Virus record (IMG/VR): IMGVR_UViG_3300032278_002366
Span: 1 to 29,962 of that record
Strand: one strand, 5' to 3'
From: a virus
Length of the DNA stretch: 29,962 nt
Below are positions 5,129 through 23,462 of this stretch, piece after piece; within the stretch, counting starts at the first letter, position 1, and each line of letters begins with the position of its first letter. The position numbers and the translations under genes are program-made. Below the pieces are notes generated by a model that was given only the letters and a program-made list of their open reading frames with translations, was not told where the DNA came from and ran no database searches.

Positions 5129-6961
5129 TTAAGAAGCTTTCTTTTTACCTAAGGCTTTTAGCAATTGAGATTTAATAGATTCTACTTTCATTGGGTTATC
5201 AGCACCTGCTGTAGCAGCATATGCTTTCTTAGGTCGATTAAGACCGCCAGCTAGATCATGAACCATAAAGTCGTCATCTTTATATTCTTCATCTGGTGAA
5301 TTATCCCACTCACCTGGTTCATCAGCTTCATATGCAGAATCATCACTTAAACCTCCACAAGGAGAAGATTTAGGACCTATTGCCGCCATCGCACCCCTGG
5401 GAGGACCTAATGGAGTTATGTGCTTCATTGCTACTGGTTCAGCATCATCCATTCCTGCATTCTTTAAAATTCCAATTAATTCTTTTACTTCATGTGCGCT
5501 TGCACCATTCATTGAAATATTCATAGAAGCTTCATCAACTTGATTAGAATTATTAAAATTAGCAGACTCTCTACCACCATCCTTATCAGGTCCAACATAA
5601 GTCTTCATCGGCTTGCCACCAGTACCACCACCACCTGATTCAGGACCACGTTCTGGTGGTCGATGATCTCGGTACGGTATCTCTTTGCCACCAGTACCAC
5701 CATCACCTGATTCAGGACCACCTTCTGGTGGTCGAAAATCTTTGTACGGTACATGTTTTCCAACGGTACTACCACCTGCAAGTGCTTTTTTAATTGCTTG
5801 CATTGTGTCTGGCCCGGCTTGTCCGTCAACTTTTAAACCATTTGCTTTTTGGAATGCTTGTACAGCAGCAAACGTACCTTTACCATACTTGCCGTCTGGT
5901 GCTGCTTTATGACCTAATTTTGTTAATGCAGCTTGCATATTTTTAACAGCTGGCAAAGCCTTTTGCCCGCCATCGTTATAAGCCTTCATTAAATTAGGTG
6001 TTTTTGTATCTAATGCTACACTACCACCGCTATCTTGAGGTTGATTATCTCTACCTGGAGGACCACCAGCAAGTTTTCCTGCTGCTGTTGGACCACTTGG
6101 AGCTGCTGCTGGTTGATTATCTCTACCTGGAGGACCACCAGTTGGACCACTTGGAGCTGCTGCTGGTTGACTATCTCTACCTGGAGGACCACCAGTTGGA
6201 CCACTTGGAGCTGCTGCTGGTTGACTATCTCTACCTGGAGGACCTGTATTTGGACCTGAAGGTTCTGCTGGTTGATTATCTCTACCTGGAGGACCTGTAT
6301 TTGGACCACTTGGTGCTTGATCATAATCACGTCCTGGAGGACCACTTGCACCTGTACCAGCTGCTACACCTGAATCTTGGTCATAGTCTCTACCTGGAGG
6401 ACCACTTGCACCTGTACCAGCTGCTACACCTGAATCTTGGTCATAGTCTCTACCTGGAGGACCACTTGCACCTGTACCTGGTGCTACGCCTTGGTCATAG
6501 TCTCTACCTGGAGGACCACTTGCACCTGTACCTGGTGCTACGCCTTGATCTGCGTCTGGCATACCACTAAAATCATCTACATTGGCAGCTGCATCTCTAT
6601 CTTTTCTTGCTGCATCAGCTGCACCCATACCACTAAAGTCATCAACGTATGCTGGATCACCTTGCTGTTGATCCGGCGCCACATATCCGCCTGCGCCTGC
6701 ATCCCTTTCAGCATCGGTTGCACCAGTTGGTTCTCCAGTTTTTTTATCAACAGCTTTTGCTTTTTCTGCTGCCTTGGCTGCTGCATCTGCAATAGGTTTT
6801 GCTTCAGCGTCTCCAATTCCTAATGTTTGTTTAACCCAATCTAATGCGTCATCAAACCAACCTTCTTGGATGTCCCTAGCTTCTTTGCCATAAACATCAG
6901 CAACTTTAATAAGTTCTTTAAAATCTTTTAAGTTGTCATTATAATCTTTATATTCGCTCAT
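5129..6961 (-). CDS. Repeat-rich putative virion protein with peptidoglycan-binding domain (610 aa)
   Basis: The domain order is clear. Residues 1-50 form a helical N-terminus (EYKDYNDNLKDFKELI). Residues 50-145 are Ala/Asp-rich with two VDDFSGM copies (106-112, 128-134). Residues 148-304 carry nine GPPGRD repeats in Pro/Gly-rich linkers. Residues 337-395 are a canonical PG_binding_1 fold (MQAALTKLG, then DGKYGKGTFAAVQAFQ). Residues 402-449 are two 24-aa copies around PYxDxRPPExGPESG. The conserved C-terminus (DDDFMVHDLAGGLNRPKKA) resembles proteins in marine T4-like phages. No hydrolase active site is visible, so it probably binds cell wall or acts as a spacer rather than cutting. Its AGGAG Shine-Dalgarno lies within the end of the preceding gene, implying co-translation. 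Its position in the packaging/structural block suggests a virion component. Confidence 0.85.
   Translation of the reverse strand: MSEYKDYNDNLKDFKELIKVADVYGKEARDIQEGWFDDALDWVKQTLGIGDAEAKPIADAAAKAAEKAKAVDKKTGEPTGATDAERDAGAGGYVAPDQQQGDPAYVDDFSGMGAADAARKDRDAAANVDDFSGMPDADQGVAPGTGASGPPGRDYDQGVAPGTGASGPPGRDYDQDSGVAAGTGASGPPGRDYDQDSGVAAGTGASGPPGRDYDQAPSGPNTGPPGRDNQPAEPSGPNTGPPGRDSQPAAAPSGPTGGPPGRDSQPAAAPSGPTGGPPGRDNQPAAAPSGPTAAGKLAGGPPGRDNQPQDSGGSVALDTKTPNLMKAYNDGGQKALPAVKNMQAALTKLGHKAAPDGKYGKGTFAAVQAFQKANGLKVDGQAGPDTMQAIKKALAGGSTVGKHVPYKDFRPPEGGPESGDGGTGGKEIPYRDHRPPERGPESGGGGTGGKPMKTYVGPDKDGGRESANFNNSNQVDEASMNISMNGASAHEVKELIGILKNAGMDDAEPVAMKHITPLGPPRGAMAAIGPKSSPCGGLSDDSAYEADEPGEWDNSPDEEYKDDDFMVHDLAGGLNRPKKAYAATAGADNPMKVESIKSQLLKALGKKKAS
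6050..6520 (-). repeat. Tandem GPPGRD-coding repeat array
   Basis: Nine copies of the GPPGRD codons lie in DNA units of mostly 54 or 60 bp. The blocks at 6361-6420 and 6421-6480 are identical except near the last bases, and 54-bp units recur at about 6100-6240. Near-identity at DNA level indicates recent expansion by slippage or unequal recombination. The array produces long open frames on other strands, which are artefacts. Confidence 0.9.
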
Positions 6962-6962
6962 G

Positions 6963-7520
6963 CTATGCTCCTATTACGCTTTTTGCATTTTCAACATTTT
7001 CAATGTCTTTACCATTACCTTGATGAACACCGGCTATAGGATCAACTTCCCTTTCTTTACGTGCAGTTTCTAATTCTTTAAGCAAATCCATTATTCGCTC
7101 GCCGCCTACATCTTTTTGTGCGCCGTCTCCGCCCATATCCTCTGTGTTTAATAATGATTCATAGGGTTTTTCATCTTCAGGTTTTTGTAGTTCGTCAATA
7201 GGATCATGTTCTCCTCGCACAACAATATAACTGTGATTAATATTGCATGCTTCTACTAGATAACGTTCTAATACATGACTAGTTGCAGGATAATTTAATT
7301 CTACTTCGTAATGGGTAACTTCAAGGTTTTGTAATTGAGGGAAGTCTAAAGGAGTTTCTTGTATTGGTGATTTTTTGCCTGCGGTAATATTTAAAACATC
7401 GTATTTTTGTAATACTGTTTCTAATGTATCTGCAAACCCTTCAGGTAAGTCACCTGCAACACGAACTTTAAACTTATACGTTTTTTTAGCTTCTGTTAAA
7501 TATTCTTTAAAAGATTTCAT
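6963..7520 (-). CDS. Conserved protein with T4-like capsid-targeting N-terminus (185 aa)
   Basis: The function is unknown. The N-terminus MKSFKEYLTEA closely matches the capsid-targeting sequence of T4 internal proteins (MKTYQEFIAEA), including the L/I-x-E-A prohead-protease site. The body is a soluble alpha/beta domain with a conserved central part (THYEVELNYPATSHVLERYL). A Gly/Asp-rich C-terminal region contains LLNTEDMGGDGAQKDVGG, found in related marine phage proteins as far as I recall. It is preceded by an exact TATAAATA late octamer and an AGGA Shine-Dalgarno, so it is probably a well-expressed late gene. The next gene's Shine-Dalgarno lies in its last codons. It may be packaged in the head or act in prohead assembly. 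Confidence 0.82.
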   Translation of the reverse strand: MKSFKEYLTEAKKTYKFKVRVAGDLPEGFADTLETVLQKYDVLNITAGKKSPIQETPLDFPQLQNLEVTHYEVELNYPATSHVLERYLVEACNINHSYIVVRGEHDPIDELQKPEDEKPYESLLNTEDMGGDGAQKDVGGERIMDLLKELETARKEREVDPIAGVHQGNGKDIENVENAKSVIGA

Positions 7521-7548: not shown

Positions 7549-7556
7549 TATTTATA
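7549..7556 (-). promoter_or_regulatory. Exact T4 late-promoter octamer TATAAATA
   Basis: A perfect match to the T4 late consensus, directly after the gp16 stop codon. A 28-nt stretch with an AGGA Shine-Dalgarno follows before the ATG of the 185-aa protein. This is the best late promoter in the window and has a conventional leader. Confidence 0.75.
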
Positions 7557-19655: not shown

Positions 19656-20096
19656 ATGAGTGATATTGTTTGTAGTGGTGCTCTCTTTTATACCCTTGAC
19701 ACAAATAGATTTTTGTTTTTACATAGATCTAATGGAAAACAAGCAAATATGTGGGGTATAGTAGGTGGTACTAATCAAAATACTGAAACACCGTGGGAAG
19801 GTTTAAAAAGAGAAATTCAGGAAGAAATAGGTTCTCTTCCTAAAATTAAAAAAACCTTACCATTAGAAACATTTGTTTCTAATGATGCACAATTTGAATT
19901 TCATACTTATATAGTAGTTGTTCAGTCAGAATTTATTCCAGTACTTAATAGTGAGCATAGCGGATATTCATGGTGTAGTTTTGGTAAATGGCCAAAGCCA
20001 TTACATTTAGGCTTACGTAATACTTTACAAAATAAAGTAAATCTTTTAAAATTAGAAACAGTATTTAAAACAATTAGTTTATTAGACGAAAAATGA
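19656..20096 (+). CDS. Nudix hydrolase (GDP-mannose hydrolase-like size)
   Basis: A complete Nudix box is present at residues 38-60: G38, E44, R52-E53, E56-E57 and G59, in the spacing Gx5Ex7REUxEExGU. The enzyme should hydrolyse a nucleoside diphosphate linked to another group, with Mg2+ bound by the REUxEE glutamates. Length (146 aa), LFLHRSNGKQANMWGIVGG before the box and the late HSGYSWCSFGKWP segment fit a small MutT/nucleotide-sugar-type enzyme; the substrate cannot be read. The stop overlaps the HldD-like start (ATGA). Placement at the head of a sugar-gene cassette favours a nucleotide-sugar or a house-cleaning role. Confidence 0.92.
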   Translation: MSDIVCSGALFYTLDTNRFLFLHRSNGKQANMWGIVGGTNQNTETPWEGLKREIQEEIGSLPKIKKTLPLETFVSNDAQFEFHTYIVVVQSEFIPVLNSEHSGYSWCSFGKWPKPLHLGLRNTLQNKVNLLKLETVFKTISLLDEK

Positions 20097-20911
20097 AAGT
20101 ATTAGTAACCGGACATAAAGGTTTTATTGGACAGAATCTTACTTCTTATTTTATGCAACAAGGGCATCAAGTAGAGGGTTGGGAGTTTATGCCTAACACT
20201 ATTCCTGATCCTAGTAGTTATGATTGGGTAGTACATTTAGGAGCAATTAGTGATACTACTTTTTCTGATGTAGATCAGATTATAGAGCAAAATTATGAAT
20301 ACTCATTAAGATTGTTACAAGTTTGTAATACTTTAGGAATTAATTTTCAATATGCTTCGAGTGCTAGTGTTTATGGTCCTACACATCATTTTACAGAAGA
20401 TGGGTTGTTATTTCCTCAATCACCGTACGCTTGGTCAAAATATTTGTTTGATAGATTTGTAACTCAAAATTTAAGTGAATTTGATATTACTGTACAAGGA
20501 TTTAGATATTTTAATGTTTATGGTCCTTATGAAAATCATAAAAAAGAACAAGCAAGTCCTTATACAAAATTTATAAATCAAGCAAAAGAAAATAAAGTGA
20601 TTCAAATATTTGAAAATAGTGAAAATTATTTTAGAGATTTTATTTGTGTAGAAGATGTTTGTAAAGTTCATAAAAAAATGATGCAAACAACTTCAGAAGG
20701 TATATATAATATAGGAACCGGAAATCCTGTAAGTTTTTATGCTATTGCAAAAGCAGTAGCATCAAAATATCAAGTTGATATAGAATATATACCTATGCCA
20801 GATAATTTAAAATTACAATATCAAAAATATACTAATGCAGATTTGAGTAAATTAAATTCTATTATTGATATTAATTGGATTAATATTGAGGATTATATAA
20901 ATGAATATTGA
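20093..20911 (+). CDS. HldD-like ADP-glycero-manno-heptose 6-epimerase (SDR)
   Basis: This is an NAD(P)-dependent extended SDR of 272 aa (E. coli HldD is 310). The Rossmann motif is GHKGFIG (7-13), the catalytic set is S90/S92 (YASSASVYG) and Y112-x3-K116 (YAWSKYLFD), and GFRYFNVYGPYENHK (136-150) and YFRDFICVEDV (179-189) follow. The combination of LGAISDTT (49-56), YASSASVYG and RYFNVYGPYE.HK is diagnostic of the ADP-L-glycero-D-manno-heptose epimerase group. HldD makes the final ADP-heptose form for LPS inner core. A GmhB-like phosphatase of the same pathway lies in the same cassette. It may act on a related sugar nucleotide. It overlaps both neighbours. Confidence 0.85.
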   Translation: MKVLVTGHKGFIGQNLTSYFMQQGHQVEGWEFMPNTIPDPSSYDWVVHLGAISDTTFSDVDQIIEQNYEYSLRLLQVCNTLGINFQYASSASVYGPTHHFTEDGLLFPQSPYAWSKYLFDRFVTQNLSEFDITVQGFRYFNVYGPYENHKKEQASPYTKFINQAKENKVIQIFENSENYFRDFICVEDVCKVHKKMMQTTSEGIYNIGTGNPVSFYAIAKAVASKYQVDIEYIPMPDNLKLQYQKYTNADLSKLNSIIDINWINIEDYINEY

Positions 20912-21587
20912 AAATAAAAACGGTGAGTTTGTAAAAGAACATAGTATTTTATTACCATTTAGTCCACCAATATATGAAACTGTGTTAAACGCAAACGATT
21001 TAAAATTTATCCAAGAGTATGCAGAATTAAGCCGTACTGCTTTTCATGTAGGCGATATGTTATCAGGAAATATTGCAGAGCAAAGAGGATCTGATATTGA
21101 AAATGACGAAATGCGGGAAAAGATGATAGACATATTATTGCCTCACATACAAGAATATTTTAAAATTTGTCAAATACAGGAAAGACAGCAGCTTCCTCAA
21201 TTAGAGAAAGAAAAAAATAACCCCTTGCCAGATTATAGTAAAATTAAGTTTCATTTAGGAAATGGTACTTGGTTTAATTTTATGAGAGCAAACGAATTTA
21301 ATCCTTTACATTGCCATTCTGGTGTAATTAATGGAATTGTTATGGTACAAATTCCTGAAGAAATTTCTTCAGAAGTTAGAACAGTACCTATGGCGTCAAA
21401 TGCTCGTTGCCCGGGTCAATTAGAATGGGTACATGGTTCTTGGGGTGCAGGAGCATATAGAAAATATCCTGTAACAGGAGAACTTTATATGTTTCCAGCA
21501 CAACTTAGGCATCAAGTATATCCTTTTACCAGCGATGTTGAACGAATTACAATGAGTTGGAATGTATTTGATATAAAATTTGATTAA
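20901..21587 (+). CDS. Second 2OG-Fe(II) oxygenase-like protein (228 aa)
   Basis: A jelly-roll oxygenase of a different subfamily from the one at 15496. Key segments are TWFNFMRANEFNPLHCHSGV (123-142; H137 and H139 as likely iron ligands), GELYMFPAQLRHQVYPF (193-209; H204) and ERITMSWNVF (214-223; R215 as likely 2-oxoglutarate anchor). A long insertion (150-190) with WVHGSWGAG separates the halves. The substrate is unknown. The ATG follows GAGGA by 7 nt and overlaps the HldD-like gene by 11 bp. Sitting between sugar enzymes, it may hydroxylate a sugar, lipid or protein intermediate, which is inference. Confidence 0.83.
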   Translation: MNIENKNGEFVKEHSILLPFSPPIYETVLNANDLKFIQEYAELSRTAFHVGDMLSGNIAEQRGSDIENDEMREKMIDILLPHIQEYFKICQIQERQQLPQLEKEKNNPLPDYSKIKFHLGNGTWFNFMRANEFNPLHCHSGVINGIVMVQIPEEISSEVRTVPMASNARCPGQLEWVHGSWGAGAYRKYPVTGELYMFPAQLRHQVYPFTSDVERITMSWNVFDIKFD

Positions 21588-21606
21588 TTAAGTGTGGAGA
21601 TAGATT

Positions 21607-22008
21607 TTGGATAAAACTAGATTAGAAGGACACGTTAAAAAGGCCTGGGGTTATGAACTTATATGGGCAACTAATGATTTGTATTGTTGTAAAATAATGG
21701 TTTTTGAAAAAGCAGGAAGTAAGTTTTCTATGCATTTTCATAGTAAAAAAGATGAAACTTGGTTTGTTAATTCAGGAAAATTTCTTCTTAGATGGATAGA
21801 CACAACCAATGCCTCTCTTTATCAACAAGAACTTACAGAAGGACAAGTTTGGCATAACCCGCCCCTGCAACCACACCAGTTAGAAGCATTAGAAGATAAT
21901 AGTAGTATTACAGAAGTAAGTACTCCGGATTCAGTTGAAGACAATTATAGAGTAGTACCAGGAGATAGTCAAAATGCAGAAGTTAAAGAAGTTCCTAAAA
22001 CTGAGTGA
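21607..22008 (+). CDS. Cupin-domain protein, mannose-6-phosphate isomerase type II-like
   Basis: A single cupin of 133 aa. Motif 1 matches G(x5)HxH(x4)E(x6)G with G37, H43, H45, E50 and G57, and motif 2 has G79 and H90. These residues bind one divalent metal. The opening GHVKKAWGYELIWATNDLY is typical of small sugar-phosphate-isomerase/mannose-type cupins. The start is a TTG at 21607-21609 with a GGAG Shine-Dalgarno 8-9 nt upstream; no in-frame ATG precedes the first conserved residues. The 3' end overlaps the next gene by 35 bp. The likely role is isomerisation or epimerisation of a sugar or sugar phosphate in the cassette. Confidence 0.82.
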   Translation: MDKTRLEGHVKKAWGYELIWATNDLYCCKIMVFEKAGSKFSMHFHSKKDETWFVNSGKFLLRWIDTTNASLYQQELTEGQVWHNPPLQPHQLEALEDNSSITEVSTPDSVEDNYRVVPGDSQNAEVKEVPKTE

Positions 22009-22831
22009 AACGCCTCGATTTAATCGATTATTAATTACAGGAGCAGCAGGAAATCTAGGTAAAGAATTACGTAAAGGATTAGCACCTCTTGCAGAAGTAT
22101 GTCGTTTAACAGACCGAGAGTCGATGGCTTCGGCAAATGATAATGAAGAAGTCATTCAATGTGAATTAAGTGATTTTGATGCTGTAATGAAAGTGGTAGA
22201 AGGTTGTGATGCTATTGTTCATTTTGGAGCAGCTTCTGTAGAACGTCCTTGGAATGAAATTCTTAATTCTTCAATAAAGGGAGGTTATAATATTTACGAA
22301 GCAGCACGACAGCACGGTATTAGTCGAATCGTTTATGCAAGTTCTGTTCATGCTGTTGGATTTGTTCAACGTGAGGCAGGTGCTGATACAGATATAACAC
22401 ATAGACCCGATACTCTTTATGGATTATCTAAATGTTTTGTAGAAGATTTAGCTAAATTATATTTTGATAAATTTAATATAGAGTCAGCTTGCTTACGGAT
22501 TAATTCTTGTTTTCCAGAACCTAGTGATCGAAGACATTTAGCTACTTGGCTAAGTTATAGAGACCTTGTACAATTAGTAGAACGTTGTTTAACAGTAGAG
22601 AGAGTAGGATTTACTATAGTTTATGGTATATCTAATAATCAAGAAGCATTTTTCTCTAATCATAAAGTTTCGCATTTAGGTTATCAACCCGTAGATGATG
22701 CAGAAATTTTTAGAAATAATGTAGTAAGTAAAACCCTTCCAGGGAAGCCTTTTGAATCTGATATTGCACACGTAGGTGGAATTTTTTGTTCTTACCCGCA
22801 TCCAGACGATTCGATAGAAGGAGATAGCTAA
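21974..22831 (+). CDS. Uronate-dehydrogenase-like NAD-dependent SDR (285 aa)
   Basis: An extended SDR with GAAGNLG (23-29), DAIVHFGAASVERPW (79-93), S123/S124 (YASSVHAVGF) and the Y149-x3-K153 catalytic pair (TLYGLSKCFVEDLA). The downstream run LRINSCFPEPSDRRHLATWL (174-193), then SYRDLVQLVERCL, is strongly like bacterial uronate dehydrogenase (uronate to aldarolactone, NAD+). This group differs from UDP-glucose 4-epimerases in exactly this region. A simple epimerase/dehydratase cannot be fully excluded. Its AGGAG Shine-Dalgarno is well placed, and the 35-bp overlap with the cupin suggests coupling. No other gene of uronate catabolism is visible. Confidence 0.83.
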   Translation: MQKLKKFLKLSETPRFNRLLITGAAGNLGKELRKGLAPLAEVCRLTDRESMASANDNEEVIQCELSDFDAVMKVVEGCDAIVHFGAASVERPWNEILNSSIKGGYNIYEAARQHGISRIVYASSVHAVGFVQREAGADTDITHRPDTLYGLSKCFVEDLAKLYFDKFNIESACLRINSCFPEPSDRRHLATWLSYRDLVQLVERCLTVERVGFTIVYGISNNQEAFFSNHKVSHLGYQPVDDAEIFRNNVVSKTLPGKPFESDIAHVGGIFCSYPHPDDSIEGDS

Positions 22832-22832
22832 A

Positions 22833-23462
22833 ATGGTAGAATCCCCAATAATTAGATGGAGTTCAGATATTCCAGAATTAATATCTGACAAACAAAAAAA
22901 TTCTAATATTGTTATTGGTATAGATCGAGACGGTACTATTAATAAGGATTTAGGAACATATGTTATTAATCCTGAAGATTTTAATCCTATAGAAGGAAGT
23001 TTAGAAGCTATTTCTTCTCTTAGAAAATTAGGATTTCTAATAGTAATTATAACTAACCAGGGCGGAATAGAACAAGGCATAATGTCACAGCGTGATGTAG
23101 ATAGAATACATGATAAAATGTTTCAATTATTAGGTAATGCTGGCTGTACTAGTATTGATGCATTATATTATAGTTCTAGTAATAGAAAAGATGATGAATT
23201 TGCAAAACCTAATGTTGGTATGTTTAAACGTTGTGAAAAAGAAAATCCTAATATTAAATTTAATAAGGGATATTATGTAGGAGATAAACTTACAGATTTA
23301 AAAGCTGCAATAAAAATAGGTGCTAAACCTATTCTTGTTCGAACAGGTTACGGAAACGAAACTGAAGAAAAATTAAAAAGACATACGTATCAAAAAATAA
23401 AAAAGCAAACTAAAATATTTGATGATTTAAGTTCTTTTGCAAAATGGATGCAAAATAATTAA
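22833..23462 (+). CDS. GmhB-like HAD phosphatase (209 aa)
   Basis: A HAD-superfamily phosphatase closest to D-glycero-D-manno-heptose-1,7-bisphosphate phosphatase/HisB-N. The motifs are D31-R-D33-G-T35 (nucleophile and general acid), T74-N75 in ITNQGGIEQG, K125 in KPNVGMF and GDKLTDLKAA with D151 and D155. The Cys-rich zinc loop of classical GmhB is missing: the equivalent segment (YYSSSNRKDDEFAKP) has no cysteine or histidine. A 20-residue N-terminal extension precedes the fold. It has a strong AAGGAG Shine-Dalgarno in the end of the preceding gene. Its stop codon overlaps the stop of the convergent giant gene. Together with the HldD-like enzyme it covers two steps of ADP-heptose synthesis. 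Confidence 0.85.
   Translation: MVESPIIRWSSDIPELISDKQKNSNIVIGIDRDGTINKDLGTYVINPEDFNPIEGSLEAISSLRKLGFLIVIITNQGGIEQGIMSQRDVDRIHDKMFQLLGNAGCTSIDALYYSSSNRKDDEFAKPNVGMFKRCEKENPNIKFNKGYYVGDKLTDLKAAIKIGAKPILVRTGYGNETEEKLKRHTYQKIKKQTKIFDDLSSFAKWMQNN

Follow-up and report, generated by a model that had tools for sequence, protein, structure and literature searches.

We propose that a late gene of the window, by which is meant the whole 29,962-nucleotide stretch of viral DNA analysed here (IMG/VR record IMGVR_UViG_3300032278_002366), encodes an internal head protein that is loaded through a T4-type N-terminal tag and would be cut after E10, its mature domain staying in the head. We put the probability of this reading at about 0.72. 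The protein itself is of a known kind; the more novel result is the breadth with which the tag appears on unrelated proteins of environmental phages.

The gene and its N-terminal tag

The gene and its parts, all on the minus strand, are as follows.

7520..6963, minus strand: whole gene, a 185-aa ORF of the phrog_14802 family (virion structural protein)
7491..7520, minus strand: capsid-targeting sequence MKSFKEYLTE, ten residues, predicted to be removed by a prohead protease
7488..7493, minus strand: predicted cut site between E10 (7493-7491) and A11 (7490-7488), [L/I]xE being the gp21 motif
7200..7490, minus strand: ferredoxin-like domain, residues ~11-107, the predicted mature core (AlphaFold2; PDB alignments span 11-107)
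7047..7121, minus strand: long helix, residues 134-158 (AlphaFold2 model)
6966..6983, minus strand: C-terminal KSVIGA, with the family motif KS[PTV][IV]G[SAG] seen in relatives
7549..7556, minus strand: TATAAATA, a candidate late-promoter-like box upstream of the start codon

The minus strand from 7520 to 7488 reads ATGAAATCTTTTAAAGAATATTTAACAGAAGCT, which is translated as MKSFKEYLTEA and begins the 185-aa ORF, and AGGA lies upstream of this start at 7534-7531. When the peptide is set against MKTYQEFIAEA of T4 ipII and ipIII, taken from the T4 record, five of the 11 residues are identical (M1, K2, E6, E10 and A11) and positions 3, 4, 7 and 8 carry conservative swaps, which bears out the position-by-position likeness claimed in the sequence-only reading of this DNA. 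F4 and Y7 place aromatic or large residues at both tag positions, and the [L/I]xE processing motif is present as L8-T9-E10.

The box TATAAATA is not enriched, with two occurrences in the window against 6.2 expected by chance, and its exact form was absent upstream of the gene in all 40 relatives checked. Nineteen of 20 relatives (among L002-L041), and the window as well, have the shorter ATAAATA at a distance of 25-45 nt upstream of the start codon; Phosso lacks it. Because the relatives have only this shorter form, which in several of them overlaps the end of the upstream ORF when inspected by eye, we claim no promoter use.

Conservation and gene order

A related-locus search of IMG/VR with six patterns, one of which contained E10-A11, found 34 related loci, and in all 34 F4 and L8-T9-E10 are kept, with A or S as the next residue. 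Codons 8-10, compared among 15 distinct relatives, show synonymous differences in 40% of codon pairs and non-synonymous differences in 0%, and at codons 12-107 29-42% of pairs are non-synonymous. Since codons 8-10 vary only synonymously, the L-T-E residues appear to be under selection; judged from these alignments, a likeness to the T4 tag by chance is ruled out, F4 and L8-T9-E10 being conserved. The window protein matches phrog_14802 'virion structural protein' (E 1.1e-8, model positions 1-145 of 179) and, over residues 1-48, phrog_2667 'internal head protein' (E 6e-4).

Farther homologues occur in jumbo phages. Twelve distant named relatives were compared, of which five keep E10 (121Q, GAP32, CBB, Vibrio 2.275 and Atu_ph07), three have D at this position (RaK2, K64-1 and BF) and four have A or S (PA5oct, XaC1, Munch and Phosso). 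Two counterparts have been reported from virions: the record of PA5oct gp282 carries an ESI-MS/MS note, and CBB_210 was detected by virion mass spectrometry with 13 unique peptides and 60.5% coverage, according to the accessible part of the source (PMC5259590). The earlier proposal of an internal or injected protein is supported in so far as homologues are found in virions; that only five of the 12 distant relatives have E10 speaks against cutting throughout the family. The accessible part of the RaK2 paper yielded no statement on ORF047, the MIJ3 paper names four structural proteins identified by mass spectrometry without the counterpart among them, and in the part available of the Atu_ph07 paper, which reports 131 virion proteins, the counterpart was not traced. 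A match in a Helicobacter prophage (H53) was dropped as a homologue, since it is antisense to an annotated gene.

Tails resembling KS[TPV][IV]G[SAG] also end an acidic core-type protein beside gp21 in two related contigs (G002, 82228-83241(-); G005, 30076-31110(+)), and no KSPxG-like C-terminal motif was found in the 116 other tagged groups described below.

The order of genes in the window is that of PA5oct, namely a gp13-like gene, dNMP kinase, sheath, tube proteins, gp4, an intermediate gene, the window gene, a large structural protein and terminase, and similar orders are seen in 121Q, GAP32, K64-1, Vibrio 2.275 and CBB. The gene has a conserved place between the gp16-like gene and terminase rather than in a variable accessory ip locus, and both the gene and its synteny are kept across a range that extends from marine contigs to jumbo phages infecting several hosts. 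It lies away from gp21-gp23 and amid tail and packaging genes (tail tube, gp4, gp16-like gene, terminase), a neighbourhood that would suit a neck, tail or packaging-machinery protein whose N-terminal likeness is irrelevant to head loading. Such a role seems distinctly improbable to us in view of the PHROG match to internal head proteins, the rule that tagged proteins carry E10 (see below) and the selection on residues 8-10. The neighbour at 5129-6961(-) encodes 610 aa with a peptidoglycan-binding domain and PSGPxxGPPGRD-type repeats. Between structural genes of the window there is also an island of sugar-nucleotide type (19656-23462(+)), in which a nudix hydrolase, two NAD-dependent epimerases, an oxygenase, a cupin and a HAD phosphatase were recognised by eye.

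Predicted cut site and protease

Neither Peptidase_S77 (gp21) nor Gp23 was found in the window, which is a fragment without head genes. Both are present in four of the eight related IMG/VR contigs (G002, G004, G005 and G007) and in all seven named phages searched. N-terminal sites in gp23, placed by eye before the conserved part, read YLSE|A (G002), WLNE|T (G005), FLVE|N (PA5oct) and MLTE|S (121Q), and the T4 gp23 sequence has FLTE|A at residue 65, which we take to be its cut position. Because the gp23 sites of the lineage share this form, YLTE|A of the window protein is of the kind that its own protease should cut. The earlier identification of a T4-type targeting peptide with an [L/I]xE site is strengthened by the 34/34 conservation and by the protease and the like gp23 site in close relatives.

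Experiments on T4, as summarised in the available part of a review (PMC9026906), indicate that gp21 cleaves after [L/I]-x-E, that a ten-residue piece of IPIII is enough for packaging and that within this tag residues 4 and 7 serve targeting and residues 8 and 10 processing. The pattern of conservation among relatives of the window protein fits this experimental map. The same partial source records that Asp at position 10 of IPIII blocks processing and leaves targeting intact (PMC9026906), and this, together with the loss of E10 in seven of the 12 distant relatives, favours a protein whose N-terminus targets the head or core and stays uncut, its helix being structural in the virion. Given those losses, cleavage is not fixed across the whole family, and since the PA5oct protein is still reported from virions without E10, targeting without cleavage is possible. 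In the window lineage itself L8-T9-E10 is kept in 34 of 34 relatives with only synonymous change and the gp23 site has the same form, which makes an uncut window protein improbable.

Occurrence of the tag within the lineage and in T4

Six-frame scans for start codons with at least 40 codons behind them and the pattern M[KRN]x[FYLI]xx[FYILMV][ILMFV]xE returned, from the window, the 185-aa gene and a Met (15102) that lies in frame inside a longer ORF; the search of the rest of the window for the same signal, proposed in the sequence-only reading, therefore turned up no other real gene start of that shape. In three related contigs (G001, G002 and G005) the sole match was the counterpart of this gene. 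The scan of 121Q found the relative of the window gene and three others, two of them short and one with a TTG start, and the scan of PA5oct did not recover the relative and matched a 44-aa GTG frame alone. In each of the eight related contigs a DNA pattern for MKx[FY]xx[FY][ILMF]xE matched exactly once, at this gene, and its reverse not at all. An earlier pattern with D or E fixed at position 6 was too strict for the family, finding three T4 genes only among 15 records.

In T4 the six-frame scan recovered ipII, ipIII and 61.1; ipI starts with MKTFKEF and its [I]xE comes later, at ITE-19. Gene 61.1 (NC_000866, 19130-18966(-)) lies beside 61.2, encodes 54 aa beginning MKTFKEFIKE and has no assigned function; it is possible that it represents an unrecognised fourth tagged T4 protein.

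The tag on unrelated viral proteins

Two IMG/VR scans for MKxFxx[FY][ILMF]xEA, each returning at least 120 stretches, gave at least 253 matches in at least 238 loci. Among the matches listed, 230 unique proteins were kept, nine rows having been dropped as shorter than 50 aa, eight for a frame running at least 30 codons upstream and the remainder as duplicates. The bodies of these 230 proteins, from residue 12 on, fall into at least 71 groups without a BLAST link at 1e-4. Across the 71 groups among the matches listed, T or S stands at position 3 in 54 and Q or E at position 6 in 48, although the pattern left both positions free; position 8, where the pattern allowed I, L, M and F, has I or L in 69; position 9 varies freely, and conservation ends at position 11.

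A third scan fixed only residues 1-8 and gave at least 130 matches in loci, from which 19 in loci fetched earlier were excluded, as these had been chosen with E10-A11. The 111 left include, among the matches listed, 101 that start ORFs of at least 40 aa, 96 of them unique and forming 67 groups. With only residues 1-8 fixed, E10 was present in 79 of these 96 proteins and in 54 of the 67 groups, again among the matches listed. As a control the same pattern was run over 84,980 bacterial and archaeal species, one genome each, where it found 49 stretches, 18 of them at ORF starts; in raw counts, E10 follows in four of these 18 cellular matches, compared with 54 of 67 viral groups among the matches listed. 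Controls with reversed patterns gave 0 or 1 match per record. All scans together yielded at least 324 tagged proteins of at least 50 aa in at least 117 groups without mutual BLAST similarity at 1e-3.

It could be supposed that the shared N-terminus is simply a favoured AT-rich translation start and no signal at all, and the start and following codons are indeed rich in A and T. This explanation is already disfavoured by the difference in E10 between viral groups and cellular start sites, and with position 9 free, nothing conserved beyond 11 and reversed patterns almost without matches we give it very little credence.

Among tagged contigs, 14 were chosen for length; all 14 have at least one tag and seven have an S77 protease. 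One 88-kb contig (G011, the source of L210) has ten tagged gene starts, with no S77 protease seen on this fragment, and possibly represents a large set of head-loaded proteins. In cultured cyanophages, two tagged proteins were found in P-SSM2, one in Syn9 and none in S-PM2. The large tagged proteins at 158143(+) of P-SSM2 (NC_006883) and 149735(+) of Syn9 (NC_008296) have an FGRFNPP motif and look cytidylyltransferase-like by eye. A match in HTVC008M is a 30-aa frame and probably spurious.

At least ten tagged proteins are reported in T-even phages in the available part of one paper (PMC12373910), and the review cited above, in the part available, suggests that the targeting signal may serve T4-like phages widely (PMC9026906). 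In the literature searched, which lacked most subscription journals, we found no account of environmental phages using the tag widely on proteins that are unrelated to one another.

What carries the tag

A Pfam search of the 117 tagged representatives matched 27 families, including cytidylyltransferase-like proteins, DUF6267, adenylate kinase, RNA ligase, lysozyme (two), glucosaminidase, lytic transglycosylase, GNAT, NUDIX, DnaJ, S-adenosylmethionine lyase and anti-CBASS Acb1. Two HK97-type capsid families among the 27 are probably chance matches to the start pattern and were taken as such. In the sequence-only reading, the same N-terminus on clearly cytoplasmic phage proteins was named as a point against a packaging signal, and in its wording this was found, for kinases and nucleotidyltransferases; these proteins are mutually unrelated and share the cut-site Glu, as would be expected of a packaging tag that is portable.

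Two tagged proteins (E 4e-17 and 3e-23) and a third, partial one were confirmed as Acb1 homologues, all on environmental contigs:

L401, 8640-9131, plus strand: tagged Acb1 homologue
L328, 2104-2574, plus strand: tagged Acb1 homologue
L325, 8054 to end: tagged Acb1 homologue, partial

In all three the tag forms an N-terminal stretch absent from 57B of T4 and of CC31. Both HxT/S motifs, which we take to be the catalytic motifs of Acb1, are kept in the two complete homologues. They are candidates for anti-CBASS proteins delivered with the DNA.

These homologues, and that of SAM lyase, in other phages lend some weight to the idea that the window protein is packaged and cut as we propose but in its mature form is injected and acts as an effector against a host defence. 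T4 Ip1-3 offer a precedent: the leader is all that they have in common, and every one of them inhibits a GmrSD enzyme, according to the accessible part of the source (PMC12373910). The T4 internal proteins are, however, variable accessory genes, whereas the window gene is conserved and syntenic, and a Pfam search of its product gave nothing useful and no match to a known inhibitor. We therefore regard an effector of this kind as unlikely, and the earlier association with a class often aimed at host defences is weakened for the window protein. Other tagged proteins could plausibly act against host defences; in the case of the window protein, whose gene belongs to the late structural module of a deep phage lineage, a conserved role in the head has at least the same likelihood.

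Predicted structure

The window protein was modelled with AlphaFold2 on a 32-row alignment, 17 rows of which had been fetched by tag patterns, so that in these rows tag conservation is there by construction. Confidence was modest (mean pLDDT 63, pTM 0.39). The modelled elements are a helix at 4-10, a strand at 15-22, a helix at 29-40, strands at 42-45, 49-54 and 66-75, a helix at 81-92 and a strand at 99-103, beside the long helix listed above, and the helix at 4-10 comes before the folded domain. The best PDB fold match has Z 7.5 and reflects a ferredoxin-like arrangement, which is common and so uninformative on function.

In BFVD the model matched Ip7 of phage MX01 (rank 13, E 8e-4, TMq 0.27). 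When the window family was aligned by hhalign with seven Ip7 sequences the probability was 95% with the tag and ~21% without it; because of the latter value kinship of the mature parts is unproven, and the tag alone is certainly shared. No solved homologue of the window family was found at E 1, and a search for one of Ip7 gave two rows, both weak and implausible. The T4 gp68 prohead core protein was considered as a relative and showed no similarity (hhalign probability 0.2%).

Proposed function and meaning

The evidence is consistent with the following course of events for the internal head protein we favour. Folded as a short helix, the first ten residues would bind the prohead core, chiefly through F4 and Y7, and this tag would load the protein during head assembly. 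A gp21-type prohead protease would then cleave after E10 (LTE|A) and free the ferredoxin-like domain with the long C-terminal helix, which would stay with the DNA in the mature head. Whether the protein also leaves with the DNA into the host is a guess that we would place near even. Action against a host defence is a doubtful guess, rated low in view of the conservation of the gene within the late structural module.

For the tag as a whole, we lean towards the view that environmental T4-like phages use the T4 capsid-targeting sequence generally, as an address label that can be carried from protein to protein. Ten N-terminal residues would then be enough to predict which proteins of an uncultured phage are head-loaded and probably delivered at time zero of infection. 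The label would sit on well over a hundred unrelated families (Acb1, SAM lyase, cytidylyltransferase-like, RNA-ligase-like, adenylate kinase, muramidases, acetyltransferases and many unknowns), with the window protein among its users as a conserved, structural one. The grammar of the tag, with aromatics at 4 and 7 and [I/L]xE at 8-10, is followed in environmental lineages whose hosts are unknown, and on unrelated proteins. Should cutting be confirmed, a stretch of ten residues would serve as a practical predictor of head-loaded and probably injected proteins of metagenomic phages, among them counter-defence proteins at work before the phage expresses any gene of its own. An unknown family of jumbo-phage virion proteins also gains a testable place in the head.

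Comparison with known systems

With the T4 internal proteins the window protein has in common MKx[FY]xx[FY][IL]xE, the gp21 motif at positions 8-10 and a head-type protease in the lineage. Its body is unrelated to theirs in sequence, and whereas they are variable accessory genes, the window gene is a conserved member of a late structural module, and for its product cutting is predicted and injection conjectural. T4 57B (Acb1) is a distinct protein without a tag and bears only on the modularity of the tag. A further comparison is with the phrog_14802 proteins of jumbo phages (121Q gp557, GAP32_204, CBB_210 and PA5oct gp282), which are homologous to the window protein over residues 1-140 and have the same gene order but a weaker tag, with L at position 4 and I at position 7 in the 121Q/CBB type. 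Ip7 (phrog_2667; T2, CC31, CkP1 and others) likewise has a tag followed by a strand-helix region, although it is of ~100 aa compared with the 185 aa of the window protein.
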